Origin: Pseudobacteriovorax antillogorgiicola
Lineage (GTDB): Bacteria; Bdellovibrionota_B; Oligoflexia; Oligoflexales; Oligoflexaceae
Length of the DNA: 64,000 bases
Direction: 5' to 3'
NCBI RefSeq assembly: GCF_900177345.1
Contig: NZ_FWZT01000011.1
Span: forward strand, 124,001 to 188,000
The notes beneath the pieces were generated by a model, which had not been told where the DNA came from, made no database searches, and worked only from the letters and a program-made list of their open reading frames with translations. Below, in pieces: positions 2,818 to 18,524 of the stretch; the first letter of the stretch is position 1, and each line of letters starts with the position of its first letter. A program made the translations under genes and the position numbers.

Positions 2818-4251
2818 TTACGACTCCAAATTTTTATTGACCAAGCTGTATTTCTTTATCTTTAGATCAAGACTGCTACGACTTATGTTCACTGCTTTGA
2901 CAGCATCTGTTACGGTTCTATGGCGAGATAGAAGAGATCTTAGGTAGTGTTTCTCAAAGAGATTCATACTTTCCTTATAATCGACATCTTCGTTAAGAGT
3001 GCGAAGAATATCCACATCTGAATGACCCCCTCTTAAATCACTCTTCGAAGGATCTAGCATTGAGCGAAATAAAGGAAGTAAGCTAGCTTGAATTTCAGAA
3101 CCATTCATCAAACACTGCATTTCTAGAGATCGCAGTACATTAAAAAGCTGCCTAATATTCCCTTGCCAGTAGAATTCGGAACACTTTTCAATGATTTTTA
3201 TTACTTCAGTACCTTTTACTTCTATCCTATTTTTGGCAAAATATAGTGGAACAAGCAGATTTAGGTCTGAAATCCTATCTCTTAACGGGCGAAGCTCTAT
3301 ATCAACGCCCGTAATCCTTGAGCGCAGGTCCATTAGGAATTTGCCTTCTTCAACAAGTACGTCGAGATCACGGGACGAAGCAACTACCACTTGAAACCTT
3401 GAGTACAGTTCTTTCGTATCGCCAAACCGTTGATAGGTTCCGTCATTCAAGACCCGCAAAAGTCTAGCTTGACACTCTTCATCCAGCCTGTGCACCTCAT
3501 CAAGGAAAAGTATTCCACCATCTGCCTCACCAATATAGCCGACGGTTGTTTCAGAAGCACCAGTAAATGAACCTTTTTTATGTCCAAATAGTAATGAGAG
3601 TGCGGCAGTATCTTTCAAATTCGCGCAATTAACTGCTACGAACGGAATATTACCCTCAACCTCAACACGCCGCTTATGGATCAGTTTAGCTACTTCTTCC
3701 TTTCCCGTTCCCGTTTCACCATAGATCACTACAGGAATATCCCTTACTCGAGCAACTCCTCGAACCGCTGTTCTCACTTTATCAGGAAGCACTAAACCAT
3801 CTTCGCATTTCAGATTGAGGTTTTTCGGAAAAGTTATTCGATTTGATTCTTTGAATCTATCAATAAGCCTATTCTGTTCTGCTGACTCGATAGCAATTTG
3901 AATTTCCGCAGAATTAATGATTGGCTTCTTCAGAAAGCATCGTGCCCCTAAGGAAAATGCTTGATTGTAGGTTTCAATTTTAGGGTCGGCACTCATAACT
4001 AGTACCAAGACCTCGGGATGATGCTTTTTAGCAAATTCAATTATATTAAAGCCTTCGTAAGTATTTTGGCTCTGAGATTGCTTAAGGTGTATATCCGTCA
4101 GTAGTATATTAATTGATTCCAGATTCAGTATCTCTTCTGCCTCTCTGATATTAGTTGCCAGATAGACTTGATAGATCTCAGAAACTAAGTCCCTATACCT
4201 TTCAATCTGATCAATAGCATCTTCAACTATTAGTATGGACTTCTTTCTCAC
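2818..4251 (-). CDS. NtrC-family sigma54-dependent response regulator
   Basis: A 477-residue regulator with three domains. The receiver (1-125) has acidic residues at 10-11, phospho-acceptor Asp53 in LLTDIHL and Lys109. The AAA+ domain has Walker A GETGTGKE (178-185), sigma54-contact loop GSFTGA (227-232, a variant of GAFTGA) and Walker B GILFLDEV (246-253). The C-terminal Fis-type helix-turn-helix is around 440-470. Phosphorylation should let it open sigma54 promoters. Its start overlaps the 3' end of the upstream histidine kinase by 29 bases, so the two are very likely cognate. It is the last gene of the long minus-strand YcaO operon. I found no convincing -24/-12 site inside that operon; the best one in the window lies at 25003. 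Confidence 0.93.
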   Translation of the reverse strand: MRKKSILIVEDAIDQIERYRDLVSEIYQVYLATNIREAEEILNLESINILLTDIHLKQSQSQNTYEGFNIIEFAKKHHPEVLVLVMSADPKIETYNQAFSLGARCFLKKPIINSAEIQIAIESAEQNRLIDRFKESNRITFPKNLNLKCEDGLVLPDKVRTAVRGVARVRDIPVVIYGETGTGKEEVAKLIHKRRVEVEGNIPFVAVNCANLKDTAALSLLFGHKKGSFTGASETTVGYIGEADGGILFLDEVHRLDEECQARLLRVLNDGTYQRFGDTKELYSRFQVVVASSRDLDVLVEEGKFLMDLRSRITGVDIELRPLRDRISDLNLLVPLYFAKNRIEVKGTEVIKIIEKCSEFYWQGNIRQLFNVLRSLEMQCLMNGSEIQASLLPLFRSMLDPSKSDLRGGHSDVDILRTLNEDVDYKESMNLFEKHYLRSLLSRHRTVTDAVKAVNISRSSLDLKIKKYSLVNKNLES

Positions 4252-5953
4252 GGTCCTCTCCCTGCAGAACTCTTGTCAATATTGACTCAGCTTTTTCAGC
4301 ACTGTTTATGATTATTCGCACCCCTTCCGGGCATTCGCTTAGCAGGAAGGCCGGGTCGTCAGTATAGATTATTTGGCAATATGGCATTGCGTCTATAGAC
4401 GTAGAAATCGTGATACCAAAACGCTGTGAGAGCGACTCAACAACTTTCTCTTGGGTTGACAGATCTTCCAAAGATAACAAGATATGGGAAATAGATTCAC
4501 AATTTCCACCAACTGCGGAATCATTCTTGGCCCTGATTCGGTCAAGCTTACGGGCCGGTTTTATTCTCACATCTTCCAAAGTCATCTGAAACACTGATAG
4601 ATTTCCTTCTCTGTAGTATTCAACTGCTCCTCCATGCCCCCGAGCAACATGATTTACGAATGCAAGTCCTAGACCAGTTCCACTTTCCTTGCCAAATGTC
4701 GTACCTTCAGTAAAGAGACTTGACTCGATTGGCGCGGGAACGCCAGGCCCATCGTCCCTGACCTTAATCACGAGAGCCTGATTTTTTAAGGACCAAGATA
4801 GCACCACTTTTGATTCTGCAGCTTCAATAGCATTGAAGAGTAAGTTTGAAATAGCCCTTTCAACCTTGACTAAGTCAATATGAATATCTACTAAATCCGG
4901 TGTGTTCGCTACAAATTCTACAGAATGACCTTCAGCATAGCTTTGAACACTGGATAGAATACCATCCAGTAAAAGATCATGGCTCGATGGCCTCACTTGT
5001 GAATCTAAATCAGCCCTCTTTATAGAGTCCGCCATGGATAAAATTCGATTAAGGGCCTTTACTAGATTTTCTTTCTCTTCAGAAAAGTCTCTTTCCGAGC
5101 CATAGGCTACTTTTTGAAAGACAGTTAATGGTCCTTTGAAGTCATGGGCAAGCATTTGCGTAGCTTGAGCAATAGCGACCTTCTTTTTTGAAGCGAGAAT
5201 CCGTCCTGAAAGCTTCTTGATATCAACACTCAAAACGCTTATTTTCTCCAGAAAGCTGTCAATTTCTGTAATTCCAGTTGTTTTTCCCTGGATCAGATCT
5301 GCGATATCATTTAGATCCTTTAGTCTGTTTATTTTCCTACTAAGATCTGAAACAATCCCGATACGCCGAAGCATCCCCGTTTCAAGAAAACTTATGCTGA
5401 AAAGGATTCCCAAGAATACTACTAAGAAAATAGTAGCCGAGCGTACTAGAAGTGGTGTCATTTTCGCAACTGGACTAACGACTCCACGGACTTCTATCAA
5501 TGCTTGGTCAACACGCATAAAGACAACAAAGTTCAAATGTAAGCTATGCTCATGAAACCGATAGTTAAAGCAACTATCCTTGTCTGAATCACAAGGACTA
5601 AAAGTCTTTTCGTAGGAGTAACCGTCCCTTTTCAAAGATCCAATTTTCAATCTGTGGACATCATAAACTTCTAGGTAGCGATATTCTTCATCTGAGAATA
5701 TGCTTCTAAGGCTTCTATTTACTCTAATATAGTCGAAGGTTTGAAAAGATTGTCGTTCTAGATTTATAAAACTTTTTACTTTATTTCTCACACCTTGTCG
5801 GTAGCTATAATCAAGGTACCAAAGATCGACAAATGAGACTAGGAGCATTCCTATAGCAACAACCGCTACTAAAGGCCTGATCAGACTTTTACGGATATAG
5901 TCTTTGAGATACACTAATATACACCGTCCTAGTGGGCTTTTATAGCACTTCAA
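4223..5953 (-). CDS. Membrane sensor histidine kinase with receiver-like C-terminus
   Basis: A 576-residue kinase. TM segments at about 27-48 and 170-190 enclose a roughly 120-residue periplasmic sensor containing two cysteines (121, 128). The H-box is AQATQMLAHDFKGP with His270; an N-box (NLLFNAIEAA) and G-boxes (DDGPGVP, GTGLGL) follow. The final 90 residues or so after the catalytic domain look like a degenerate receiver (ILLSLEDLSTQEKVVESL, then IIYTDDP). This domain is unusual and could be a docking module for the regulator encoded next. The gene overlaps the TfuA-like gene upstream by 14 bases and the sigma54 regulator downstream by 29, so it belongs to the operon. The stimulus is unknown; a peptide-type ligand is suggested only by the neighbouring solute-binding proteins. 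Confidence 0.9.
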   Translation of the reverse strand: MKCYKSPLGRCILVYLKDYIRKSLIRPLVAVVAIGMLLVSFVDLWYLDYSYRQGVRNKVKSFINLERQSFQTFDYIRVNRSLRSIFSDEEYRYLEVYDVHRLKIGSLKRDGYSYEKTFSPCDSDKDSCFNYRFHEHSLHLNFVVFMRVDQALIEVRGVVSPVAKMTPLLVRSATIFLVVFLGILFSISFLETGMLRRIGIVSDLSRKINRLKDLNDIADLIQGKTTGITEIDSFLEKISVLSVDIKKLSGRILASKKKVAIAQATQMLAHDFKGPLTVFQKVAYGSERDFSEEKENLVKALNRILSMADSIKRADLDSQVRPSSHDLLLDGILSSVQSYAEGHSVEFVANTPDLVDIHIDLVKVERAISNLLFNAIEAAESKVVLSWSLKNQALVIKVRDDGPGVPAPIESSLFTEGTTFGKESGTGLGLAFVNHVARGHGGAVEYYREGNLSVFQMTLEDVRIKPARKLDRIRAKNDSAVGGNCESISHILLSLEDLSTQEKVVESLSQRFGITISTSIDAMPYCQIIYTDDPAFLLSECPEGVRIIINSAEKAESILTRVLQGEDREKEVHTNS

Positions 5954-6578
5954 CCATCGAATCTATTCCAAGCTTCTTAATGGCAATCATTGCATCCGAT
6001 TTTTTTCTGGTTCCTGCTTTAAGATTATCGCCTAGCATTTCTTGATCAGCGCCTACTTTTCGCATCGCTGTCCTTAGCATATCTAGGTCTCTTTCTGTAT
6101 AATGTCTTTCACTCACCACGCTAACTAGTTCACTATATTGTCTAAAGTCTATTAGCTTTCGATATTTCAACGTTCTCAGCGCATATATGACATCGACTAA
6201 AGCAAAGGTGATCGGTTGAAAGTTCCTTGGATCAACCAACTGTGCCACAATCTCATCGTCAACTATTATTTGCCGCCTAATCCATCGATATATGTGTCCA
6301 AAGCCCTTCATTCCAAGCGATTGGGCCTCGACCGCTCTCAGAGCACCCATAGACGATGCCCCTGCTATCGACACACCTATGCCGATCAAACGCCTAATCT
6401 CGGTAAGGTCAACAGCCTCCTTCTGGTGGAAAAAACCATCAATGATCAGTATCCGATCGTTACATTTAAATCTAGATTCTCGGAGACACCCTCTGGCAAT
6501 GGGGGGATGCACAACTATATCGTCCGAGCTAGACGCGATCTGGATACTAGTGCCGGAGTAGATATGCGTCTTTGACAT
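5940..6578 (-). CDS. TfuA-like protein, YcaO partner
   Basis: About 212 residues matching the TfuA core domain: N-terminal YSGTSI, HPPIARG, then DRILIIDGFFHQKEAV and GASSMGALRAVE, the characteristic TfuA stretch, with a C-terminal helical region. TfuA proteins act with YcaO enzymes. In thioviridamide-type RiPP pathways and in methanogens the pair is needed to turn a backbone amide into a thioamide, with TfuA proposed to help deliver sulfur. Here the YcaO gene is two genes upstream in the same operon. I placed the start at the ATG at 6578, because the codon before it is only a TTG without a clear ribosome site. It overlaps the upstream solute-binding gene by 32 bases and the downstream kinase by 14. 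The family assignment is firm; the exact reaction here is inference. Confidence 0.88.
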   Translation of the reverse strand: MSKTHIYSGTSIQIASSSDDIVVHPPIARGCLRESRFKCNDRILIIDGFFHQKEAVDLTEIRRLIGIGVSIAGASSMGALRAVEAQSLGMKGFGHIYRWIRRQIIVDDEIVAQLVDPRNFQPITFALVDVIYALRTLKYRKLIDFRQYSELVSVVSERHYTERDLDMLRTAMRKVGADQEMLGDNLKAGTRKKSDAMIAIKKLGIDSMVEVL

Positions 6579-7971
6579 CAAGTTTCTCGATTTCTAAGTC
6601 AAGAGGAGAGTTTATATTCAGTTCTCCTCTAATATAGTTTGAGTTGAAAAAAATCTTCTTCATAACCCCATATTCTATTGGAGCCATGATCAAATTGTTC
6701 ACTAAATAACTATCTAGTTCTTTTGAAGCATCAACCATTCTCCTATAGTTAGCGCTATAGATTGGTTCCAAGAACCTTGTTATCTGTTTTTGGTGCTCGC
6801 TACTGGAATCGGACTTAAAAAAAAAGTTTAACTGGCTATCTGGTTTGAACACCGAAACCAAGTCTCTCGTCGATTGAACTGATGGTAAGAACCTCCCCAT
6901 GAACAATTTGAGCTTGTTTTCTTGGTTTAGTTGAAGAAATCTTTTAAGTGAAACACGATTTGCCTTACACTCTACCCCTACTTTTTTAGCTTGTTTGCAT
7001 AAAATTGATGCTACTTCATCAAAGTCTTTTAAGTAATAGTCAATTTCCAGATTGGTCGGATTGATAGACTTGCCATCAGTATTAAGCTTTAGTTTTGGAT
7101 TGTGTCCCGCTAAACCGAGAGGAATAAAGCCACCAAGGTCATATTTCAGATCCTTTTCAATTTGCCCAAACAACTTCAAAACAGATCTTCTTCTTCTAAT
7201 ATCGCCATAAATACTATCTAAGTTAAATCCTATGAACCGAATCTCAGGAATAAAGTAACTCAAAGAAGCATCAAATTCATTCTTTGACGAAGGTGTTCCT
7301 ATTGATAGAAATGTTCCCTTCTGAGATTTATCAGAGATACAAAACACTTTTGGGCCAACAATATTTCTGTCTTTTGCACGAAACCTAAATATGTTCTTGT
7401 CGATCGATTCGATGAAATAAGGGCCACTACCAGCTATACCAAGATCATCTTCAACACATAAAGATGCGTGAAGGCCGGATAAATCATCCAATATCGAAAA
7501 GTATGGCTCAGTAAAACTAAGTTTTACTTTGAACTTAGAAAGTATTTCGACACCTTGGACCTCATTTGAAGCATTGCTCAGAAATTCACCTGAACCGATA
7601 ATTTTCTTGAATCCATGTACTACACCAGCTTTCAAGACTGTCTCAATCATTCGCTTAACATGGGCAGCTGTAACTAGTTCATTTTTTCTGACAAGCCTAT
7701 CGCCCCTAAGCCAAATCACAAGACTTGTCCCTGTCTTGTCAAACTTCCACTTGAGAGCAGCTTCGCTGGTAAATGCTCCATCTGCAGCTTTTTTAACTAG
7801 CCTCTCACACACCTGATTAACCATTATATGGCTTGCCAAATCAACCATCTTTCCACTATTGAATTCAGAGGGCATTTCATCCACATGCAGAGTAGGGCAA
7901 TATTGTATCCCATTAGAAAAAGCTTGGCTTGAAAGCAGGAAGAGGAAAAATATTTGCCGAAAACACCTCAT
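6547..7971 (-). CDS. Family 5 extracellular solute-binding protein (oligopeptide-type)
   Basis: A 474-residue protein with a clear signal peptide (MRCFRQIFFLFLLSSQAFS) and the layout of SBP_bac_5 proteins (DppA/OppA-like): a mature N-terminus with a short strand, WLRGDRLVRKNELVTAAHVKR matching the usual 'G.pvTa.DV' region, then long alpha/beta lobes. I chose the ATG at 7971 over an in-frame start 54 bases upstream because it puts the signal peptide at the N-terminus and overlaps the YcaO stop by 4 bases (ATGA). No permease or ATPase of an oligopeptide importer is present in the window, so it may serve as a periplasmic peptide receptor for a sensor kinase rather than as a transporter subunit. 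That is inference. It is a distant paralogue of the protein at 12951. Confidence 0.8.
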   Translation of the reverse strand: MRCFRQIFFLFLLSSQAFSNGIQYCPTLHVDEMPSEFNSGKMVDLASHIMVNQVCERLVKKAADGAFTSEAALKWKFDKTGTSLVIWLRGDRLVRKNELVTAAHVKRMIETVLKAGVVHGFKKIIGSGEFLSNASNEVQGVEILSKFKVKLSFTEPYFSILDDLSGLHASLCVEDDLGIAGSGPYFIESIDKNIFRFRAKDRNIVGPKVFCISDKSQKGTFLSIGTPSSKNEFDASLSYFIPEIRFIGFNLDSIYGDIRRRRSVLKLFGQIEKDLKYDLGGFIPLGLAGHNPKLKLNTDGKSINPTNLEIDYYLKDFDEVASILCKQAKKVGVECKANRVSLKRFLQLNQENKLKLFMGRFLPSVQSTRDLVSVFKPDSQLNFFFKSDSSSEHQKQITRFLEPIYSANYRRMVDASKELDSYLVNNLIMAPIEYGVMKKIFFNSNYIRGELNINSPLDLEIEKLDVKDAYLLRH

Positions 7972-9068
7972 CCTATAGACCCCTTCAAATAGTTGAAAAC
8001 TGATTGGCCAAACCGATGCCGACATAATCCGAACTGCTCAGCACCCTCTATAATTGATCGGGTGACATAGGTTCCATTCTCACTTGGATAGGTATAGTAG
8101 AGATATCTTCCTAAGGATTTATCATTTTTTCTGACAGTTTCCAGAATCAAATTAATTGCTGATAGGCTTGATATGGCAGTTAAACTAATAATGTCATCAA
8201 AGTCTCTCTGCTCCTTGCTATCAGACGAATACCAAAAGCTAAACACCCGAGAATCTCCTATTGCTGAGTGTTTCTCATTCAGGTCTTCTCTGGAACCAGA
8301 TACCGAGACGGCCCTAGACTGAAGCGCTTCTGAGATTGCTGATTCGAGAGCAGTCTTTTTATCTAGATGACATGCGACACCGCTATTGAAACTTCTCATA
8401 CCATCGAGAGTGGGCTCTACAAAAACAGAGTAGAAACACGGTATTCCAAGCTCCGTAGATATGTCATTAATTTCCACCTGGACTCCCTGTTCCTGGAGAG
8501 ATAAAAGTTCATCTTTAAGCTCAGCAGATATCTGACTTTTGTAGTTTCTTACACTAAACGCTCTCTTCCTAAGAAGCGCCCACGTGTGAGCATGACGTTC
8601 AACAACCTCTAATAACCCATACATTAGGGACTCATAGAAGCTTAGACCAGTGGCAAGACCGTTACTTGTAGCGCTGAATATGCCAGGATGAAAGTACAGT
8701 GAAGCAATGGGAGCGTAAACCCACGTGTCGGTATCAAAGTCCTTTACAGGAATCCACTCGACCGCTTTGTCCTCACAAAAACCTACTTGGCCTAAGCTTC
8801 CTACTGGGACATGATCCATCTTACTATCAACCATCTTCCGCGACGAAAGCACAATACTTTGACATCGCACTCTCTCCGCAACCGCTATCTCATATGCTTC
8901 AAACAGAAGGCTGGCTAAAGCCAGCTCTGTGGTTAGACCTTTCCCTGAACATGTCGATATATCAATGGTTGAATGAGGCCTGTACCCTTGGAAAACGGGC
9001 ATTAGTTGGTTGGCAAGTTTGTTGATACTAGATATTCTAGATAGGCCAGCTCTTTTTTTTAGAGCCAT
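7968..9068 (-). CDS. YcaO-domain cyclodehydratase/thioamidase
   Basis: A 366-residue stand-alone YcaO protein. The ATP-binding motifs of the family are visible: SGKG (41-44), SLLFE (53-57), SNGLATG (135-141), ESLMYGLLEVVERHA (146-160, usually ERDA) and SEALQSRA (246-253). YcaO enzymes use ATP to activate a backbone amide O-atom and form azolines, thioamides or amidines on peptides. The TfuA-like protein in the same operon points to thioamide formation. The C-terminus is not proline-rich as in azoline-forming YcaOs, which fits the TfuA-linked branch. Immediately upstream are a methyltransferase and a secreted small peptide, both possible partners. The downstream solute-binding gene starts within its stop codon. 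The substrate is unknown: a ribosomal peptide is the best guess, and an rRNA or protein target cannot be excluded. Confidence 0.9.
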   Translation of the reverse strand: MALKKRAGLSRISSINKLANQLMPVFQGYRPHSTIDISTCSGKGLTTELALASLLFEAYEIAVAERVRCQSIVLSSRKMVDSKMDHVPVGSLGQVGFCEDKAVEWIPVKDFDTDTWVYAPIASLYFHPGIFSATSNGLATGLSFYESLMYGLLEVVERHAHTWALLRKRAFSVRNYKSQISAELKDELLSLQEQGVQVEINDISTELGIPCFYSVFVEPTLDGMRSFNSGVACHLDKKTALESAISEALQSRAVSVSGSREDLNEKHSAIGDSRVFSFWYSSDSKEQRDFDDIISLTAISSLSAINLILETVRKNDKSLGRYLYYTYPSENGTYVTRSIIEGAEQFGLCRHRFGQSVFNYLKGSIG

Positions 9069-9133
9069 ACCAATTTTTACAGATTCCTCAGCACTTTTTG
9101 ATCTAAATCTATTGCCTGAGTCAGGATCGGAAA

Positions 9134-9769
9134 CTACATCGCTAATTTTTTTTTTGCAGTCAACTTGATGATACTTCCTCTGCCCTCAGCGATTGGCCCA
9201 ACGTCATCAGACTCAATTTCAAACCCTACTGCAAGCAACTCGGCTCTCAAATCATCTGGATTCCAAAGATAAAATGGAATAGGTTTGAGATGGTCAATCT
9301 TCATAAATTCTGGATGAATTGCATGGATGACGGTATTTGCTTCTCCTATCGCGGTAGCAAACATCATCTTACTATTTGGTTTAAGAACACGATAAGCTTC
9401 GCTTATCGCTTTCTTTCCATTCTCATGATCGATGTGAAGAATCGAAAACAAGAACATCAACGCATCAAATGAGTTATCATCAAAGGGAAGACTGTTAATA
9501 GAGTTATGGAATGTCTTCGACGCATTGACTCTCTTTTGATAGCTCTCCAGAACCTTTCTAGAAACATCCACCCCCGAAAAGTAAAGTCGATCCCCATGCT
9601 TCTCTGCTTCATCACCCGGGCCACAACCTAGATCGGCGATGGAGGCTCCCTCGGGCAAATCAGCAAGAAAGTCATCGATAAATTGTCCGATGAAATTGAC
9701 TGAGGCACACTCGTTCTGCGAGTACAGTTCACTAACCAAGTCATAATATTCTGGGATCGTAATACTCAT
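9134..9769 (-). CDS. Class I SAM-dependent methyltransferase
   Basis: A 211-residue methyltransferase of the Methyltransf_11/25 type. SAM motif I is IADLGCGPG (44-52), with the acidic residue of motif II in FSGVDVS and LPFDDNSFDALMFLFSILH as the post-II/motif IV stretch. There is no substrate-specific domain. It begins 3 bases after the stop of the small exported peptide gene and lies 65 bases before the YcaO gene, so all three are probably co-translated. In this setting it is a candidate tailoring enzyme for the peptide product, but small-molecule methylation is equally possible from sequence. Confidence 0.85.
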   Translation of the reverse strand: MSITIPEYYDLVSELYSQNECASVNFIGQFIDDFLADLPEGASIADLGCGPGDEAEKHGDRLYFSGVDVSRKVLESYQKRVNASKTFHNSINSLPFDDNSFDALMFLFSILHIDHENGKKAISEAYRVLKPNSKMMFATAIGEANTVIHAIHPEFMKIDHLKPIPFYLWNPDDLRAELLAVGFEIESDDVGPIAEGRGSIIKLTAKKKLAM

Positions 9770-9772
9770 GAC

Positions 9773-9988
9773 TTACCGTGCCCTCAATTCTGCTATTGGC
9801 GATTTTACATCTTGCCAAAACCCCTTAAGCAGTAAATCTAGATAGTCAACTTCTCCATGGTCTTCGATTATTGTAGGAGGAAGTTGGTCGGATGGACTAT
9901 CTTGACTTACTCCAGTGCTCGCTTGTGCACCACCTACAAAAACGAAACTTGAAAGCGTAACGGCTTTAAAACAGTAACTTACTTTCAT
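9773..9988 (-). CDS. Small exported peptide, candidate substrate of the YcaO/TfuA pair
   Basis: A 71-residue protein. The ATG at 9988 is supported by a GGGGG ribosome site 6 bases upstream and by the resulting Sec signal peptide MKVSYCFKAVTLSSFVFVGG followed by AQA-STG, an A-x-A cleavage site. The mature part is about 48 residues, acidic in the middle (IIEDHGEVDYLDLLLKG) and ending ELRAR. It has no Cys and only few Ser/Thr after the signal, so classic azoline chemistry is unlikely; backbone thioamidation would not need them. Its position just before the methyltransferase and YcaO genes is that of a precursor peptide. It could instead be a secreted signal, or an accessory periplasmic protein. 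No family is recognised. Confidence 0.65.
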   Translation of the reverse strand: MKVSYCFKAVTLSSFVFVGGAQASTGVSQDSPSDQLPPTIIEDHGEVDYLDLLLKGFWQDVKSPIAELRAR

Positions 9989-10084
9989 ATTAACCCCCTT
10001 ACCCTGCCTTTTTATTGCCCTTCGGCACATCAGAAACGATATCTTCGAGTTAACGTAAAAATTGCGGTGAAGCAAGTTTATTTT

Positions 10085-10321
10085 TCAGTCAAAAATACTC
10101 TTATCGTTTAGATTCGCTTGGATTTTCAGGGTAATAGCTAAGGACTCTCTCATTGGTACTGAGGTTCTTCTATGTTTAGGAATCATCATAAGCTCCTCAA
10201 TTGAAAATCCCGCTTCGATTATGCTTTGGGCTACAGCTGGTACCAGCTTTATAGTGAAGTGAGTTTTGACAAAGTTTCGAATGATCAGTCTATATACAAG
10301 CGTCTTTGTAGCTGTTGACAA
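10085..10321 (-). CDS. Small basic protein, possible second precursor or leader
   Basis: A 78-residue frame in the gap between the three-receiver kinase and the exported peptide. It starts with TTG, has no good ribosome site, and could begin further in. It reads as basic and helix-prone (KTLVYRLIIRNFVKTHF; VAQSIIEAGFSIEELMMIPK; ESLAITLKIQANLND) and lacks a signal peptide. It is co-oriented with the operon, 116 bases after the kinase and 96 before the peptide gene, so it may be a real cytoplasmic small protein or a leader-type peptide for the YcaO enzyme. No family is recognised. It may also be a chance frame. Confidence 0.4.
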   Translation of the reverse strand: MSTATKTLVYRLIIRNFVKTHFTIKLVPAVAQSIIEAGFSIEELMMIPKHRRTSVPMRESLAITLKIQANLNDKSIFD

Positions 10322-10437
10322 TTTTTAGAATATGTATTTGTTCTTCTTCTAAAAAGAGGAATTGCTTCTCCTGATACTCTCATTTGTTGCTTCCAAGCTG
10401 TTTGCATGAATCTCACTATCATTGATGTCACTTTCAC

Positions 10438-12984
10438 TCACTGACAGCGGCGCTCCCCATCTCTAAGTGCTTGAGCCATCTGATCTAAACTTAGAATAGG
10501 CTTGGGAACAAAATGATCCATCCCACTAAACTCCGATATCGAACTGTCTGTAGACATCCCTACGACCACCATGTAGCTATGCCTTTTCTTAGCAAAAGAC
10601 ATCAATTTTAGACCATCGGAGGGATCATCAAAATCTGTTGTCAGATGGATGTCTGAGAGCAGATAGTCATAATTGTTAAGCTCCATCAGCTTGACTGCTT
10701 CTTCATAAGTAGCAGCACTGTCGCAAGCCATGAGATCTGATCCGATACCTTGATACAGTTCACGTTGTAGATCTATATCTTCGACGATCAAGAGCCTTCG
10801 TGACTTGAGTGTACTTTTATACTGGTTTAGGCACATTTGTTGGGTTTCCTGTTGCTGCCGGTTCTTACCTAACCTAAGCGTGTTAAGCTTTGCCATTGCA
10901 TCACTAGGATTCTTGGGAAGCACTCCTGAAAACAACTCAAGCTCCTCAGCTTCAAGGTGATCTTTGCCACTGCATAGATAGATGTCCCCGCTAAAACCTA
11001 GCTGTCTAACATGGTTTGCAACATCTATACCTGTCTTGAAATCATCGAGATAATAGTCAGTTACAACTGCATCGACATCTTCAAAGAAGTCTGGTTTCCC
11101 TGATTTCATGAAGAACGTCCTAAAATTCATGAAGACTTCAATTGGCGCGGTATCGAAAAGAAGCTTCCAAGAGCTTGCTATAGTCTGGTTATCCTCAACC
11201 AAGACAACTTTTCCTCTAATATTGGACTTGCTTTCCGCTGCGGTTTCACCATCATTAAGCCCTACTGTGGAAGCTAGAATCTTTAGCAAATGAAGTCTGG
11301 ACATCGGCTTGGGAAGGAAAAGGTCTGCTCCAGCTTCCATCGCCAGTGAAGAGTATTCTAGCGCACCACGATTTGAATGAACGCATATCCTACTATCGGG
11401 TTGTTCATTTCGAATCAAACGAACGGCATCCAAGCCATTCATCGTACCTCTGCCTAGATCCACATCGATTATGACCACATCGATGTTATTGCTAACATCA
11501 ATCAGAAATTGCTCTGCCGATTGATGTTCCTGTACGTTTATCTTCGCTGCTAGCCTAGTATTGCATGCCAGATTACTCTTTAGGTGACCTCGATAGACGG
11601 CCTCATCATCGATGATCGCTAAGCTGATTTCTCGGCCTATTTCTTTTAAGAGGCTTCCCTCCAAAGATTTTTCTTCGGCTTGCGAGCTTCTAGCCTCCGG
11701 AGAAATAGTGGAACAAGCTGTAACGTCGGCTCTCAACACAGATTCTTCGTAGTACTCCTGGCTAGAAGATAGTATCTTTACCCTGCTCCCGTCACGATCA
11801 CCCGATACAGGCAAGGTGATAAAGAATTCAGTCCCTTTTGCAAGCGAAGAGTCGCACCAGATTTTCCCACCATGAGCCTCTACGATTTTTTTAGCAATAG
11901 CAAGACCAAGCCCAGTCCCTCCCTGCTTCCCTTTGGTGAAGAATGCGTCGAATAGTTGCTTTCTGTCACTCTCAGGAATATATGAATTCGAGTTTCCAAG
12001 ACAAATTTCGATCCAATCGTCACTTTCTTTCGTGATGATCCATAGCCTACCGCTATGACCCATATGCTCAATCGCATTGCCTAGAATGTTCGTAAAAACC
12101 CGATTCACTTTGAGGGAATCAACTTCCACACAACTGCCATGACTAAACTGGCTTTCAATTTTGAAATCGCTTTGGCTATTGAATCGGAATAGGTTTCTAA
12201 GTGTATCTCCAATCATCTCTGGGATAGATTCACTAGAATAACTCAGTTGAGTCACTGATTGGCCAACTTCCATGACATCCTGAATCATGCCGTTTACACT
12301 TGTCAAGGCTTGTGAAATATCAGATAAGCCATCATTAAGAATCAACTTTACCTGCTCTGAATCCCTGGCATTCGCTACCATATCAATAAGTGCGCTGACC
12401 AAGGAAAATGGTTTTCTCACGTCATGAGCAAGCATCTGAGTGGTCTGAGCGATAGCCCGATTCCGTTGGTTCTGAAGTTCTATGGCTTGCTGGGCTAACG
12501 TTTTTTTTCTAGATCTACCATAGAACAAATATTGGATCGCAACGAGGATCGCGAAAAATAGTGACGCCGAATAGAGATTGGTAAATCGCTTCGAATAGAA
12601 GCAAAGTGAACCGAGTGCCTTTTTCTCTACCAGCCGAACAGTATAGCAGGTTTCAGACACCAATAGTTTAGACTCTTTCAGAGGCTCAACGACTCGGTAG
12701 GTGTCGTTGAAAAAGAAGCTTTCTCCACTAGCCTCGTGTCTATAAACCACAGCAATAAAAACATTCGACTCACCCGTCACCCGCTCAAAATCCGCGATCG
12801 CTGGTGTAAAGTAATCCGCAAGCAAATTATTCCTCTGAGATAGAAAAAGGTTTTTTGAATAAATGTTCCGGTGGTACTGCTGAAACCCCTCTGCTGCGAG
12901 AAGGACAATGACTGCCTCAAGAAGAATTAACGCCAAAAACGAGATAGGCTTCACTTGCCCATCTCTTTCTTTTTCACTAGCCAT
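10438..12984 (-). CDS. Hybrid histidine kinase with three receiver domains
   Basis: An 848-residue kinase. TM segments (14-32, 139-155) enclose a short periplasmic sensor with two cysteines (113, 128). The H-box is AQTTQMLAHDVRKPFS with His187, followed by an HATPase domain ending in GGTGLGLAIAKK. Three receivers follow at about 455-575, 590-700 and 732-845, each with a phospho-acceptor Asp (IIDVDL, VVTDYYL, LLSDIHL). Multi-receiver chains imply branched or buffered phosphorelay. The start overlaps the upstream solute-binding gene by 34 bases, so the sensor and a peptide-type binding protein are co-translated, suggesting liganded binding protein as the stimulus (inference). The H-box is closely similar to that of the kinase at 4223, so the two are paralogues within one operon. 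Confidence 0.93.
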   Translation of the reverse strand: MASEKERDGQVKPISFLALILLEAVIVLLAAEGFQQYHRNIYSKNLFLSQRNNLLADYFTPAIADFERVTGESNVFIAVVYRHEASGESFFFNDTYRVVEPLKESKLLVSETCYTVRLVEKKALGSLCFYSKRFTNLYSASLFFAILVAIQYLFYGRSRKKTLAQQAIELQNQRNRAIAQTTQMLAHDVRKPFSLVSALIDMVANARDSEQVKLILNDGLSDISQALTSVNGMIQDVMEVGQSVTQLSYSSESIPEMIGDTLRNLFRFNSQSDFKIESQFSHGSCVEVDSLKVNRVFTNILGNAIEHMGHSGRLWIITKESDDWIEICLGNSNSYIPESDRKQLFDAFFTKGKQGGTGLGLAIAKKIVEAHGGKIWCDSSLAKGTEFFITLPVSGDRDGSRVKILSSSQEYYEESVLRADVTACSTISPEARSSQAEEKSLEGSLLKEIGREISLAIIDDEAVYRGHLKSNLACNTRLAAKINVQEHQSAEQFLIDVSNNIDVVIIDVDLGRGTMNGLDAVRLIRNEQPDSRICVHSNRGALEYSSLAMEAGADLFLPKPMSRLHLLKILASTVGLNDGETAAESKSNIRGKVVLVEDNQTIASSWKLLFDTAPIEVFMNFRTFFMKSGKPDFFEDVDAVVTDYYLDDFKTGIDVANHVRQLGFSGDIYLCSGKDHLEAEELELFSGVLPKNPSDAMAKLNTLRLGKNRQQQETQQMCLNQYKSTLKSRRLLIVEDIDLQRELYQGIGSDLMACDSAATYEEAVKLMELNNYDYLLSDIHLTTDFDDPSDGLKLMSFAKKRHSYMVVVGMSTDSSISEFSGMDHFVPKPILSLDQMAQALRDGERRCQ

Positions 12985-14561
12985 AGTGGAGATATTGTTG
13001 AGTTTTTGGAAATATCCAAGGCCCAGTCATCTCGATAAATAGCTACCGATGGATAAGACCACAGTGGAATAATAGATGGATTTGTAAATAAAGAGTCGAA
13101 GTGAATTTGTCTAAACAACTCCATTCGCTCCCTTTTTGAGAGGGAAAGATAGTTGTCCAAAATATCAAATGATGATTTATTGTCAGCTGCCTTAAATAAG
13201 CCGATATCAAAGAAGTGAGCGAACGTGCTAGGACTTTCCGCGTAGCCAGCAGTGACACCCAATTCTATTAGATCGGGGTGCTCAAGAGCATCTTTACCTG
13301 GGTCCACATCAATCAGGTGATAGCGTTTATCCTTATCAACCTCTCTCAAGTCATAAGTGCCATTGTGCTTGATAGCTTTCTTAAGGAAGCTAATGATAGA
13401 TGGATTCACTCCCACAATAGTTTTTCTATTGCGAGATACTGAGGTGCCATTGGCGACTTCCTGCTCTAGAAAATCTATCTGCCTATTACTCAATGAGCCA
13501 AAGGCCCCCTTTGCAACAAACTGGTTCACTATCCTTGCGTATCCAAAAAGCTTTCTTTTCTTCGATTTTTTTCTACGTTCTTTAAGTTTTCTCTGAATCT
13601 GGTTTTGGATATCAAGGCTAACTTTCCTCCTCACCTTCGGAGACATTTGGTTGAATCCCTTCTTAGTAAAGACCATACCTGCCACGGACATTTCGTTTGT
13701 AGTAAAAACTTCCGAAGGCTGGCTTTCTATTGCTTTCGCAAAGAAAGAGTTGTCATACCAAATATTCGATAGAGGAAGGAAATCCAGATTACCCTTAACG
13801 AATTCAAGATAGCTTTTAGGCGTATTTTTTCCGTCAATACTAATATAATCATCTGCCATAATAACAATAGTACTTGCAGACTTATCTCTATTCCAATGAC
13901 CACTATTGGCTTTGAGAAGGATATGTCCGCTACTGCTCTTTCCAGCATGTCGATAGGGTCCCGTAGTCTTTGAATAGTCCTGAATATTGAGATTTTTCGG
14001 GTCAACTGAGATCCTAGGCACAATGGCTAGCTGAGAATTCCTCAACAGGGCTGGAATACCAGGCAGTTTTCTTGGAAATGTCAATGATATTGATCTTTGC
14101 GAATAGTTGATGCCATCGCACTTTTCATCGACCGATTGAAGCCTTTCCTTGCCACAAAGATATCGAGCTAAGGTTTTAGAGATCGTGCTATCCGACTTGA
14201 CAAAGACTCTCTTGAAAGAAAAAGCAACATCGCCTCCAGAAACACGACCGACAACCCAAGGAAGATCTCTAATTTGGATTTCCAGTGTATTATTCTTCTG
14301 CCACTGATAACTTTCCGCAATTCCTCCCGCCAGGCTGATATTTTGACGATCCATATTGGATTCGAAAAGATTTGAATAAAGAGCGGACGTTATGATCCTA
14401 TCCGACATTTTCCCGGAGTTAATGGGATCGAAGCGGGTTATATCATGGGCTCTAAAAATAGCGGTACGAAGAGTCACTTCATTCGATTTTTCTGAATAAG
14501 CATGTGATGCTAGCCAAGCTATCAAAAAACAAAAGATATAAGATACTTTTCTCCCCACCAT
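12951..14561 (-). CDS. Family 5 extracellular solute-binding protein (second copy)
   Basis: A 536-residue exported binding protein with signal peptide MVGRKVSYIFCFLIAWLASH followed by AYS. SBP_bac_5 signatures include FDPINSGKMSDRIITSALYS, a GGIAESYQW segment and GGDVAFSFKRVF. The ATG at 14561 was chosen over a GTG 24 bases upstream because it has an AGGA ribosome site and leaves a normal signal peptide. It starts 26 bases after the cupin gene and its end overlaps the three-receiver kinase. Oligopeptide permease genes are absent nearby. Together with the copy at 6547 it suggests periplasmic recognition of peptides as part of signalling or of handling the locus product. Confidence 0.85.
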   Translation of the reverse strand: MVGRKVSYIFCFLIAWLASHAYSEKSNEVTLRTAIFRAHDITRFDPINSGKMSDRIITSALYSNLFESNMDRQNISLAGGIAESYQWQKNNTLEIQIRDLPWVVGRVSGGDVAFSFKRVFVKSDSTISKTLARYLCGKERLQSVDEKCDGINYSQRSISLTFPRKLPGIPALLRNSQLAIVPRISVDPKNLNIQDYSKTTGPYRHAGKSSSGHILLKANSGHWNRDKSASTIVIMADDYISIDGKNTPKSYLEFVKGNLDFLPLSNIWYDNSFFAKAIESQPSEVFTTNEMSVAGMVFTKKGFNQMSPKVRRKVSLDIQNQIQRKLKERRKKSKKRKLFGYARIVNQFVAKGAFGSLSNRQIDFLEQEVANGTSVSRNRKTIVGVNPSIISFLKKAIKHNGTYDLREVDKDKRYHLIDVDPGKDALEHPDLIELGVTAGYAESPSTFAHFFDIGLFKAADNKSSFDILDNYLSLSKRERMELFRQIHFDSLFTNPSIIPLWSYPSVAIYRDDWALDISKNSTISPLWLVKKKEMGK

Positions 14562-14587
14562 TTCTTGTCCTATTTGTTCAAACACTC

Positions 14588-15802
14588 TTACAACTCATCA
14601 GGGGCTTTAATTGATGTGCTCCCACCATCCGAGAACGTTGTGTCAGCTCGGGGCGTAGATAATTTTTTAATGAGACTACCCACCCCAGAACTTGGACGAG
14701 TCTCAAGGTCCGTCGCCAGATCTAGATTTATAGCCGCTCTAAGAACTTCATTCTTACTGGCCCCATCTGTTTTCCTAGCAGAAAGACCACCTTTTCTTTT
14801 CGTCAACAACTTTTCGATTTTGCCATTTAATTGAGGCGCATAAGTCGACCTGTTCACAGAACTCTCAAAATTCACCTGAGTCTCATCTTCAAATTCCCTC
14901 AAAATTTCGTCTCGTAACTCGACATCGAAGCAAAGTAGAGTACACATGTATTTCTCTTCAGCACTCAACCGCGGGAAAATCTCTTTGATTTTCAGAGCAC
15001 TCTCATGATCATCCCTTAGCTTCTCAAATAGGGACCTTAGTGCCTCGGAACGTTGTTCGACCTCATGCTCCAGATAGCTCATAAAACTTTGAACCGAGTT
15101 GCTGCCATCAATATATCTTGTGAGATACATCAGTAGTTCTTGATCCGAATTCGAACGAAAGAATGAATCCAGGTAGCCCTTATTTGAATCAGATCTACTC
15201 AGATTGGAAAGAAAAGATACCCTTGAAACGGGAGCTAAGAGATCTCTTGGATATACGATCCCACTGCCGGTACAGACAAATTGAAAGTCACGATTTTTCC
15301 GCATTATTATAAGGACCACTGTAGGTGAATCCATATGAAAGATGCTATGTACATAGTCATTGGTGATCTGCCGTGAATCACCTTTTCCGTAGCGCTGAAC
15401 AGCAGTCAACTCTAATTTTGCTTGGGAGAAGCTCGCAATGAGAGGTTTACCCTTGGAAACACTGAACTCAAGGTCCAAACTACTCCCCGACAGAACTTGA
15501 AATGCCCCTTCAAACTCATGGTTGTGTATTTCAGTTCTATCAGCAGGCCAGCAAGCGAGCACCACATGGAAGCCTCGTCCTTGATGAAGAGCTATTCCTG
15601 GACTAGCGAACGTCAACAGATTCTTTTGCGCTATATTCTGTGAAGTTAAAAAGTCATATATATCATCAGTTGTCAGTTGGGTTGCTATGTCAAGATTTTC
15701 AAGCGCTTCATGGGATATTTTCGCAAAGTTGGTCTCAAGCTCAACATCAGAAAAGGCATCGATGTAGTCTTTTAATGCCTCAGTCCGGCTTAAAAGTCTC
15801 AA
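14588..15802 (-). CDS. Cysteine-dioxygenase-like cupin protein with C-terminal extension
   Basis: A 404-residue protein; the start is a TTG at 15802 with a CGGAG ribosome site 7 bases before it. Residues 60-170 resemble the cupin of cysteine/thiol dioxygenases: WPADRTEIHNHEFEGAFQVL supplies two candidate metal ligands (His93, His95), and HSIFHMDSPTVVLII supplies further His residues (152, 156). Thiol dioxygenases oxidise a thiol to a sulfinate using Fe(II) and O2. The remaining 230 residues are helical, have no recognised domain and end in a low-complexity Ser/Thr-rich tail. It is the first gene of the operon. A sulfur-related role would fit with thioamide chemistry, either in supplying or in disposing of sulfur, but that is speculative. 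Confidence 0.6.
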   Translation of the reverse strand: MRLLSRTEALKDYIDAFSDVELETNFAKISHEALENLDIATQLTTDDIYDFLTSQNIAQKNLLTFASPGIALHQGRGFHVVLACWPADRTEIHNHEFEGAFQVLSGSSLDLEFSVSKGKPLIASFSQAKLELTAVQRYGKGDSRQITNDYVHSIFHMDSPTVVLIIMRKNRDFQFVCTGSGIVYPRDLLAPVSRVSFLSNLSRSDSNKGYLDSFFRSNSDQELLMYLTRYIDGSNSVQSFMSYLEHEVEQRSEALRSLFEKLRDDHESALKIKEIFPRLSAEEKYMCTLLCFDVELRDEILREFEDETQVNFESSVNRSTYAPQLNGKIEKLLTKRKGGLSARKTDGASKNEVLRAAINLDLATDLETRPSSGVGSLIKKLSTPRADTTFSDGGSTSIKAPDEL

Positions 15803-16271: not shown

Positions 16272-18524
16272 CTAGCTCATACGCTTAAGCAGATCCTGAT
16301 ATTTTTTTTCCTTTTCTTTTCTAAGTGAGAACATAGCTGGAGTCTTCCGAAGAATAAGCCTATATGGCCTTCCAACCCTTTCAGTCTCATGGGTCAACGG
16401 TAAATCGAGCGAATCTATGGTTTGGTGTATATGCCCTCTGTTGTATTTATTCAGCGGCCATACTTTTTTCTGGGTAATTGGGGATCTTAGGAACTTATTC
16501 AACTCTGTGCAAAGTTCACAATCACATGGAAGCATGTCATCAATTTTCCAATTGCTAGGGCCAAGATCATCTTTCAAAAAGGTCTTTATTTCAGCTTCAG
16601 CCAAGCTTTTGATCTGACGGTATTGTTCGAAGTCTTCGAAAAAATCGCAAAGATCGCTCGATGAAAGAAGTTCAAATAGGTAGATTGACTGAAACACATG
16701 GATCTCTTTAACCATCTGATCCAAAAGCCCCACTGCAAATTGCTTCCTTTCAATAAATGTTAGTACTTCTGCTAAAGACTTAAGATTCAGTTGTATCTCT
16801 TTCGTGAATTGGAGACGACTTTCTTTACTATAGAAACGATATCCCGAATTTGAAATATTTGACTCGAACTCACCTATCCACTTGTTAAGTACAAAGTCTG
16901 AGAACTCCGGTGCCTTTATCCACATGCTCTTGATCATTGTTGATAAAACTGAGGGGATAAGACGACTCCTATCATCTATTTTTAGATTCGACAGACTCGT
17001 GGCGATCTTACTGTCACCATACTGAATAATCAGCTCCTCGATACCTTCTACTCCAAGGTTTAGAATTTGTCGCAAACTCAAATGTTTGCACAAAGCTGCA
17101 AAAAATTCATACTTTTTTATCGCCAAGAGAAAATCTAAAAGGATCGGTTCCTCGACATCCTGTAAACCGTAATCACTTCCTAGGTATGCTAATACCGAAG
17201 GAAATAGATGAGACGATTTTTCAAAATCATGCTTCAAAAGCCGGCAATATTCAGAGAGTCCGCAATTAAGATCGATAGACATCTTCGCAATTATCGAATG
17301 GTTTTTCTCCCACAGAACGATCGCCGACCTGTTATACCAACGATCAATAGTATTCCCATAGTTACCCATGAACCCTTCATATTCACTCTTTTCGGGCACA
17401 AGAGAGCTATTATCTAAGGTCGAGAAGATAAACTCATCACGAATATATTTTTCTCCATAGTCTAACTTCTTGCCACATTGATCAATCCACCCTGAAAGGC
17501 TTGTCTCGCTGTTGACTAAGTCGTCGATTTCAACACCCTCCTCCGAATCTTCCTCTAAATCATCGACATAGTCATAGTACCGAGGAGATCTGGACTCATA
17601 AGCAGACCAGGTTTCATGGGATTCAGCCAGAGTAAGAAATATTTCTAAATCTAATTCTTTAGCAGCTTGCTTAAACTCTTTAGCAACAGTTCTATCGGCC
17701 CCCTTAAGGTTTTCCCAAGCTAAACTTCTAGGTGTGTATTGATGATTTAGTAGGAAGACAAACCATTTTGGAGTTTTTCTGTAATTCGAAGGAACTGCAT
17801 GTTGTGCAGAAAAATAGCTATCCAATGATTTCGCAAGACCGCCACTTACCCGCTCTGATTTCTGCTCCTTACCATGTTCTAATATAAGATTAAATGTGAG
17901 AGCGAGCCGATAACCATAGCTAAGCTTATTAATCTTGTGTTGGCAGTCAGCATAAAAAGCCACATACTGGAGGGATGGTTCACGGCCATACTTCGAGTAG
18001 TTACACGACCCAAGGCTTTCAGTATGGCCTTGGTAGTCAATAACAAGTTCACCTCCACGATAAGTCGTCGGCAATATGATCGATAGGGTAGCTATCATCC
18101 CATCTTCTTTTTCTGAATCTTGATGAAAGTCAAAGAAGCAGGATTTTTCATATATCAGCAAATTATGAAGTTCAGCTCTCAAGTCACCATCCGAGGGGAT
18201 AAGAAGATCCTTCTTTATTCTTTCTAAGGAGCTTTCTATCTGCTCTTCAAACTCCCTTCCAAGGCTAATACAAGACTTCTCTATTTCATAAGACTTGCGA
18301 ATATTCTGATCATATAGAGTCTTATCCTTAAAACCGAATTGCGATGGCTGGGCTATTTTTATTAGCTCTCGTATCATTTTTGGCTGAAGAGGAGTCGATA
18401 TTGTACCGAAGCCTTGAACCGTAACCTCAAGGCAATCAGCGCTAGATTCGAAAGATGTACAGAAGTTTCTGGCTGTAAATCTAGTCTTGATCATTTCTTT
18501 TATTGATGATTCTAGAGATGCCAT
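16272..18524 (-). CDS. Large 2OG-Fe(II) oxygenase family protein
   Basis: A 750-residue protein; the ATG at 18524 has a GAGGG ribosome site. Residues 110-215 form a prolyl-4-hydroxylase-like double-stranded beta-helix: the Fe ligands are probably His134 and Asp136 (FFDFHQD) and His196 (QHKINKL), and Arg206 is the likely 2-oxoglutarate-binding residue. GGELVIDYQG is the usual strand between them. The other 530 residues are not recognised. They include a very acidic stretch near 325 (DDLEEDSEEGVEIDD), a helical middle, and a C-terminal region with CDCELC, a possible metal-binding cluster. It is a cytosolic hydroxylase of unknown target, in an operon with the small protein at 18578. It may or may not belong with the YcaO locus; a 470-base gap separates them. 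Confidence 0.8.
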   Translation of the reverse strand: MASLESSIKEMIKTRFTARNFCTSFESSADCLEVTVQGFGTISTPLQPKMIRELIKIAQPSQFGFKDKTLYDQNIRKSYEIEKSCISLGREFEEQIESSLERIKKDLLIPSDGDLRAELHNLLIYEKSCFFDFHQDSEKEDGMIATLSIILPTTYRGGELVIDYQGHTESLGSCNYSKYGREPSLQYVAFYADCQHKINKLSYGYRLALTFNLILEHGKEQKSERVSGGLAKSLDSYFSAQHAVPSNYRKTPKWFVFLLNHQYTPRSLAWENLKGADRTVAKEFKQAAKELDLEIFLTLAESHETWSAYESRSPRYYDYVDDLEEDSEEGVEIDDLVNSETSLSGWIDQCGKKLDYGEKYIRDEFIFSTLDNSSLVPEKSEYEGFMGNYGNTIDRWYNRSAIVLWEKNHSIIAKMSIDLNCGLSEYCRLLKHDFEKSSHLFPSVLAYLGSDYGLQDVEEPILLDFLLAIKKYEFFAALCKHLSLRQILNLGVEGIEELIIQYGDSKIATSLSNLKIDDRSRLIPSVLSTMIKSMWIKAPEFSDFVLNKWIGEFESNISNSGYRFYSKESRLQFTKEIQLNLKSLAEVLTFIERKQFAVGLLDQMVKEIHVFQSIYLFELLSSSDLCDFFEDFEQYRQIKSLAEAEIKTFLKDDLGPSNWKIDDMLPCDCELCTELNKFLRSPITQKKVWPLNKYNRGHIHQTIDSLDLPLTHETERVGRPYRLILRKTPAMFSLRKEKEKKYQDLLKRMS

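Follow-up and report, generated by a model that had tools for sequence, protein, structure and literature searches.

Does one operon encode both the making and the sensing of a modified ribosomal peptide? The question is raised by a 13-kb minus-strand operon (15802 down to 2818) in the window, by which we mean the whole 64,000-nucleotide stretch of Pseudobacteriovorax antillogorgiicola DNA analysed here. In 5'-to-3' order, the operon encodes a cupin-like protein, a periplasmic binding protein (SBP1), a hybrid histidine kinase (HK1), a doubtful product (orf78), a candidate precursor peptide (pep71), a methyltransferase, a YcaO protein, a second binding protein (SBP2), a TfuA protein, a second histidine kinase (HK2) and a response regulator (RR54). 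Adjacent genes mostly overlap or have gaps of 2-3 nt; the exceptions are 65 nt before the YcaO gene and ~450 nt between HK1 and pep71. ORF calls and Pfam analyses found the gene set as described in the original prediction. Ten of the eleven genes that it listed are well supported, but orf78 (10085..10321) is doubtful, with a TTG start, no visible ribosome-binding site and no relatives. The operon harbours no permease or exporter gene, as had also been noted. The peptide, modifying enzyme, kinase and response regulator are thus all found in one operon, which is the layout of autoinducing two-component systems.

The YcaO protein (7968..9068, minus strand, as are all genes of the operon) matches PF02624 at 5.8e-42, and a motif check and alignment showed that its ATP-site motifs SGKG, EAYE, SNGLATG, EVVER and EALQSR are kept. 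Its closest NCBIfam entry is the YcaO of McrA-glycine thioamidation (126 bits, below the cut-off). TfuA (5940..6581; PF07812, 8.7e-30) is encoded two genes downstream, with SBP2 alone in between, and scores 130.8 bits with NF033432, below the equivalog cut-off. TfuA is present in a single copy in its own 7.3-Mb genome, and searches of further genomes of the class did not find it. YcaO-TfuA thioamidation is known from the genetics of McrA (PMC5589413). The operon also encodes a class I SAM-dependent methyltransferase (9134..9769; Methyltransf_11, 3.5e-15). Its first gene (14588..15802) codes for the cupin-like protein, of 404 residues, with a conserved IHxH...GAFQVLSG...H pattern. The 'thiol-dioxygenase-like' label proposed for this protein came from the IHxH...H pattern only and is not supported, with no match in Pfam, PDB or profile searches; a single-sequence model was unusable for fold assignment (pLDDT 35.5). 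We identified one homologue of it, at locus L120, with 27-29% identity.

The candidate precursor pep71 (9773..9988) has 71 residues. Its signal peptide ends in ...VGGAQA, followed by STG, its C-terminus reads ...DYLDLLLKGFWQDVKSPIAELRAR, and its mature part is devoid of Cys residues. It is positive by a crude signal-peptide rule, and its gene is preceded by a strong Shine-Dalgarno sequence, in agreement with the small secreted peptide initially described. No homologue of pep71 was detected.

Both binding proteins had been assigned to the SBP_bac_5 family, and family profiles confirmed the two assignments, although SBP2 is below the Pfam cut-off and SBP1 taken alone has no Pfam match. SBP1 (12951..14585) is an OppA/MppA-type protein, whose homologues match SBP_bac_5 down to 4e-16. 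Compared with solved structures, the SBP1-family profile matches OppA3 (2.5e-24), MppA, OppA and PrgZ (8e-13), with NikA far behind. PrgZ is the enterococcal pheromone receptor of the SBP_bac_5 family, and CntA and NikA are binders of metal-metallophore complexes. SBP2 (6547..8025) has a signal peptide and matches the SBP of locus L175. A profile built from SBP2 and the SBPs of L171, L172 and L175 matches CntA (4e-28), then NikA and OppA, and because of this preference a metallophore-like ligand is possible for the SBP2 type.

HK1 (10438..12984) comprises two transmembrane segments around a periplasmic domain of ~100 residues, the phospho-acceptor H187, and HATPase and receiver domains identified with Pfam. 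HK2 (4223..5953; HATPase, 3e-14) also has two transmembrane segments, and its phospho-acceptor is H270; both kinases have kept this His residue and the G box. RR54 (2818..4251) is a response regulator of sigma54 promoters, with REC and Sigma54_activat (9e-46) domains and conserved Walker A and GSFTGA loop motifs.

We looked for related loci using TfuA as a marker. A scan of named GTDB genomes yielded 80 further TfuA loci (in methanogens, actinobacteria, rhizobia, myxobacteria and others), or 87 including plasmid loci. The SBP1-family profile found no family member beside these 87 loci, and direct searches found neither the SBPs nor the kinases of the operon beside the 80 diverse loci, so the marker was abandoned. 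The SBP2 profile gave one generic SBP match, at the edge of L029. Plasmid-borne YcaO-TfuA loci of Legionella, Mycetohabitans and rhizobia have no SBP homologues, and ThiS/ThiF or AAA partners instead. Followed via TfuA, the operon would seem a fortuitous assembly of genes. The predicted co-occurrence of SBPs specifically with YcaO-TfuA in other genomes is therefore not borne out, and since the SBP1 family is absent beside the 87 TfuA loci, the association is that of YcaO, SBP, kinase and peptide rather than that of YcaO and TfuA. The exact gene set of the window is a singleton, given that no family SBP was found beside those loci and that TfuA is absent from the relatives searched. The operon resembles the YcaO-TfuA clusters of thioamidated RiPPs of the thioviridamide type (PMC8120280, PMC6511847) in having a YcaO gene near a TfuA gene, a small precursor and a methyltransferase. 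It differs from them by its Sec-signal precursor and its lack of a dedicated exporter, and the SBP1 family occurs in 0 of the 87 YcaO-TfuA loci examined. Neither PMC8120280 nor PMC6511847, both surveys of TfuA clusters, mentions histidine kinases, two-component systems, solute-binding proteins or signal peptides in its main text.

Profile searches of 287 genomes, 58 of which belong to this phylum (57 besides P. antillogorgiicola), gave a different picture. SBP1 homologues were identified in 8 other genomes of the phylum, with strong SBP-family scores in nine genomes by profile search, and short YcaO proteins were found in 8 of the 287 genomes. We thereby collected ~17 related cassettes in 8 of the 57 other genomes of the phylum (G001, G010, G012, G027, G050, G052, G054 and G056), with the layout short exported peptide, SBP, YcaO and hybrid kinase. 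The gene that usually follows the SBP gene codes for a divergent, short YcaO without TfuA (PF02624, 1e-11 to 8e-19), and it precedes that of a hybrid kinase with 34-37% identity to HK1. Among 16 strong short-YcaO matches, 14 adjoin an SBP gene, the 15th is truncated at the end of its contig and the last is unrelated; a match on contig C23 of G001, which sits among AMP-ligase, HSD and KAS III genes, was rejected as a cassette. Conversely, with few exceptions, SBP1 homologues adjoin a YcaO and an HK1-like kinase where the contig is long enough. Two loci with more divergent YcaO proteins, L174 and L175 (PF02624, 0.0017 and 4e-12, respectively), were counted as cassettes. No short YcaO was found in ~229 sampled genomes of other phyla, nor in a small sample of 195 genomes from the phylum of G085.

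In L115, the genes for a peptide, an SBP, a YcaO, an HK2-like kinase (29% identity to HK2, 1e-34) and a sigma54 regulator (41.6% identity to RR54 over 478 residues) form a single run. As the SBP-kinase pairs of the relatives and the kinase-regulator pair of L115 match them, SBP1-HK1 and HK2-RR54 are each recognizable pieces of the cassette family. Wherever the N-terminus of a cassette kinase could be read, it shows two transmembrane segments with a small periplasmic domain between them, and most of these kinases share the H-box QMLAHDVRKPF. The window has a homologue of the cassette SBPs, SBP1, next to an HK1-type kinase. However, it has no YcaO of the short, TfuA-free clade between SBP and kinase, a TfuA-type YcaO being encoded elsewhere in the operon instead, and the pep71 gene is located between those of HK1 and the methyltransferase and not directly before an SBP gene as in the cassettes. 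We conclude that the locus is genuine and that more than chance has brought its genes together. The co-occurrence expected of a peptide that is made and sensed holds in that an SBP, a kinase and a small exported peptide accompany YcaO elsewhere, but the YcaO in question is the short, TfuA-free type.

A tree of 77 YcaO proteins placed the cassette YcaOs in a separate, fast-evolving clade, apart from the TfuA-linked YcaOs. The YcaO of the window is on the TfuA-linked side (SH-aLRT 93), in a group to which the E. coli-type YcaO belongs as well, and it sits on a long branch without a starred placement. Because the cassette and window YcaOs are separate in the tree, a common sensing chassis would be combined with different modifying enzymes, and we thus propose an enzyme swap, with a TfuA-type YcaO and a methyltransferase in the window and a short standalone YcaO in its relatives. 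Standalone YcaO proteins can thioamidate, as does that of E. coli on uL16 (PMC13063428), or make amidines, as does ItfB, according to its citation in PMC10352776. The cassette YcaOs are likewise free of TfuA; unlike these enzymes, they form a distinct clade next to short exported peptides and SBPs. The other YcaO proteins of P. antillogorgiicola were rejected as cassette members: that of L122 is of the E. coli type, and those of L123 and L124 are short YcaOs without SBPs. The latter two (L123:10104-11764 on contig C27 and L124:8751-10443 on contig C24) are each found beside mutually related proteins of ~225 residues, by eye heme-oxygenase-like enzymes, and represent a second YcaO system devoid of SBP.

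Short ORFs precede the SBP genes in 16 cassette loci. Many of the encoded peptides have a lipobox followed by CG[DST], while others have a type I signal like pep71, which has the same anatomy as the cassette peptides. Of 14 testable YcaO cassettes, 11 have an ORF with a signal peptide that abuts the SBP start; among control genes of the same contig set, 7 of 134 do (Fisher p 8e-10). This comparison used a crude rule drawn up after inspection of the peptides by eye, which inflates the cassette count and leaves the control rate unaffected. ORFs with a lipobox abut the SBP start in 6 of 14 cassettes and 0 of 134 controls. The SBP-kinase pairs without YcaO, L109 and L111, have no abutting peptide ORF, L109 starting 310 bp from the contig end. 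The signal peptides are followed by acidic or polar linkers, then by variable and often Cys/Gly-rich C-termini, such as PPCGGLACN, AGGICGGRPGIGT, TSCFGGGRTNM, AERCRARCVITDQ and ECF. A leader-like L-x-K-x-G motif, picked post hoc, precedes the core in four precursors from related loci (0.05 expected from shuffling, strict form). The last 17 residues of the L113 and L118 precursors are identical, with three synonymous changes, whereas 14 of 38 linker residues differ. An identical C-terminus with a diverged linker is the pattern that one would predict were the C-terminus the functional part.

On balance, we think that the operon is a ribosomal-peptide signalling cassette, in which a YcaO-modified peptide is produced and also sensed through SBP, kinase and sigma54 regulator. 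In the cytoplasm, YcaO-TfuA would install a backbone thioamide on the peptide, which may also be methylated; the short YcaOs of the relatives might instead form azolines or amidines. The modified peptide would then be exported by Sec and its signal or leader trimmed off, and the absence of an exporter would be explained by the fact that the peptide carries its own Sec signal. Once mature, the peptide would be bound by SBP1 and SBP2 in the periplasm, and these would then dock on HK1 and HK2 through the small periplasmic domain of each kinase; phosphate would be passed to RR54, which would act on sigma54 promoters, perhaps including that of the operon. Sigma54 -24/-12 sites are present upstream of the window operon and some cassettes; their frequency (4 of 15 cassettes against 12 of 144 real upstream regions, p 0.05) is suggestive relative to shuffled sequences and weak relative to real upstream regions, and we therefore set it aside as evidence. 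Because the operon has no permease, the SBPs are predicted to be co-receptors rather than importers, and the absence of an importer fits this role. Pairing of peptide and SBP as ligand and receptor is favoured since the peptide gene is mostly first, abutting or overlapping the SBP gene. Paralogous cassettes, with their different peptide cores and SBPs, could then form private channels. The lipobox precursors would stay membrane-bound unless cleaved, and diffusion between cells is therefore hypothetical; the peptide may leave the cell, or it may serve as a self-sensor or metal probe within the periplasm. Several features count against our proposal: the window architecture, with two SBPs, two kinases, a TfuA-type YcaO and a peptide gene apart from the SBP gene, is a singleton, pep71 has neither a detected homologue nor Cys in its mature part, the SBP2 profile is nearer to metallophore binders than to OppA, and the YcaO gene of cassette L108 is frame-shifted.

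That unrelated biosynthetic and regulatory genes are adjacent by chance would agree with the exact gene set having been found once and with TfuA-type loci elsewhere lacking SBPs, but the recurrence of equivalent sets in 8 other genomes, in several families, largely refutes this idea and makes it very improbable. YcaO products are often antibiotics, and it is conceivable, if rather unlikely, that the peptide is a bacteriocin-like weapon whose SBP-kinase arm senses the product or the damage that it causes, as in lantibiotic autoinduction. Numerous paralogous cassettes with variable cores would fit an arms race, and the operon does hold a sigma54 regulator. Nevertheless, it has neither an exporter nor an obvious immunity protein, the lipobox of many precursors would tether the peptide, and two binding proteins and two kinases exceed what bacteriocin sensing needs.

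Thioamide or azole peptides can bind copper, several relatives have Cys-rich cores, and CntA and NikA are the closest matches of the SBP2-type profile. The modified peptide might thus be a periplasmic chelator and the SBPs receptors of its metal complex, in a metal- or redox-sensing system. We consider this unlikely, as the SBP1 family is nearest to peptide binders with NikA far behind, the mature part of pep71 is devoid of Cys and the operon has no metal transporter or metal-responsive gene. Lastly, the SBPs might sense foreign or prey-derived peptides, the YcaO product being a separate output of the pathway and not its ligand. The generic OppA/MppA-like character of the SBP family and the occurrence of the SBP-kinase pairs L109 and L111 without YcaO and peptide are in line with this view, which is nonetheless quite unlikely given the position of the peptide gene at the head of most cassettes, in contact with the SBP gene.

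A peptide signal of the kind we favour would share features with several known systems. In the enterococcal PrgZ system, a pheromone freed from a lipoprotein precursor is bound by an OppA-like SBP, and the SBP1-family profile matches PrgZ. Unlike in our model, that pheromone is unmodified and imported by Opp, and it targets a cytoplasmic regulator without a kinase. LuxPQ, ChvE-VirA and TorT-TorS are examples of SBP-coupled kinases, in which a membrane kinase with a periplasmic domain relays the signal of a periplasmic SBP; however, they involve other SBP superfamilies and non-peptide ligands and have neither a precursor gene nor YcaO. It is mainly in Gram-positive bacteria that modified ribosomal peptides are known to induce their own kinases. 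The Agr and nisin NisRK systems combine such a peptide and its cognate histidine kinase in one operon, but their kinases bind the peptide directly, whereas the window encodes a periplasmic SBP per kinase and differs further by export with a Sec or lipoprotein signal, the YcaO enzyme, the sigma54 output and a Gram-negative host.

YcaO products are mainly known as antibiotics or protein modifications. The recurring sets with different peptides point to an undescribed Gram-negative peptide-signalling system; in full-text searches of the open-licence literature, we found no paper uniting YcaO, a histidine kinase, a solute-binding protein and a precursor peptide. More tentatively, they may define a class of Gram-negative peptide pheromones, with lipoprotein or Sec-exported ribosomal precursors, a dedicated YcaO, an OppA-like co-receptor, a hybrid kinase, several orthogonal copies per genome and exchangeable enzymes. 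If so, Gram-negative bacteria would possess a peptide language that is encoded genetically and can diversify, and the presence of YcaO genes without transporters would be explained. The recurrent sets would also make ligand-receptor pairs directly readable from genomes and offer matched precursor/receptor pairs for testing.

A few additional features of the cassettes and of the window were recorded. In G001, SBP-family members are found at eight places (L107-L112, L121 and L173), including several SBP-kinase pairs and some remnants, which is a lineage-specific expansion. One of its cassettes (L108:3034-5036) harbours a JmjC_2 protein, of the family to which RoxA belongs, next to the frame-shifted YcaO, and L174 has an additional MFS permease. 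Related tyrosine recombinases are encoded directly beside two cassettes located in different families (L111:7881-9107 and L115:11625-12770), which suggests mobility and fits patchy inheritance. A tRNA/integrase island was looked for in the window, but neither an integrase nor a repeated tRNA end was found. The G+C content of 2818-15802 (41.5%) is lower than that of 19300-64000 (46.9%), which hints modestly at a separate origin of the operon. Next to its 3' end, the plus strand (10-2651) encodes a permease of the FtsX type whose C-terminal part resembles LolA, then an uncharacterized exported protein. Upstream of the operon and on the same strand, 16272-18524 codes for a 750-residue protein that weakly matches 2OG-Fe(II) oxygenases.
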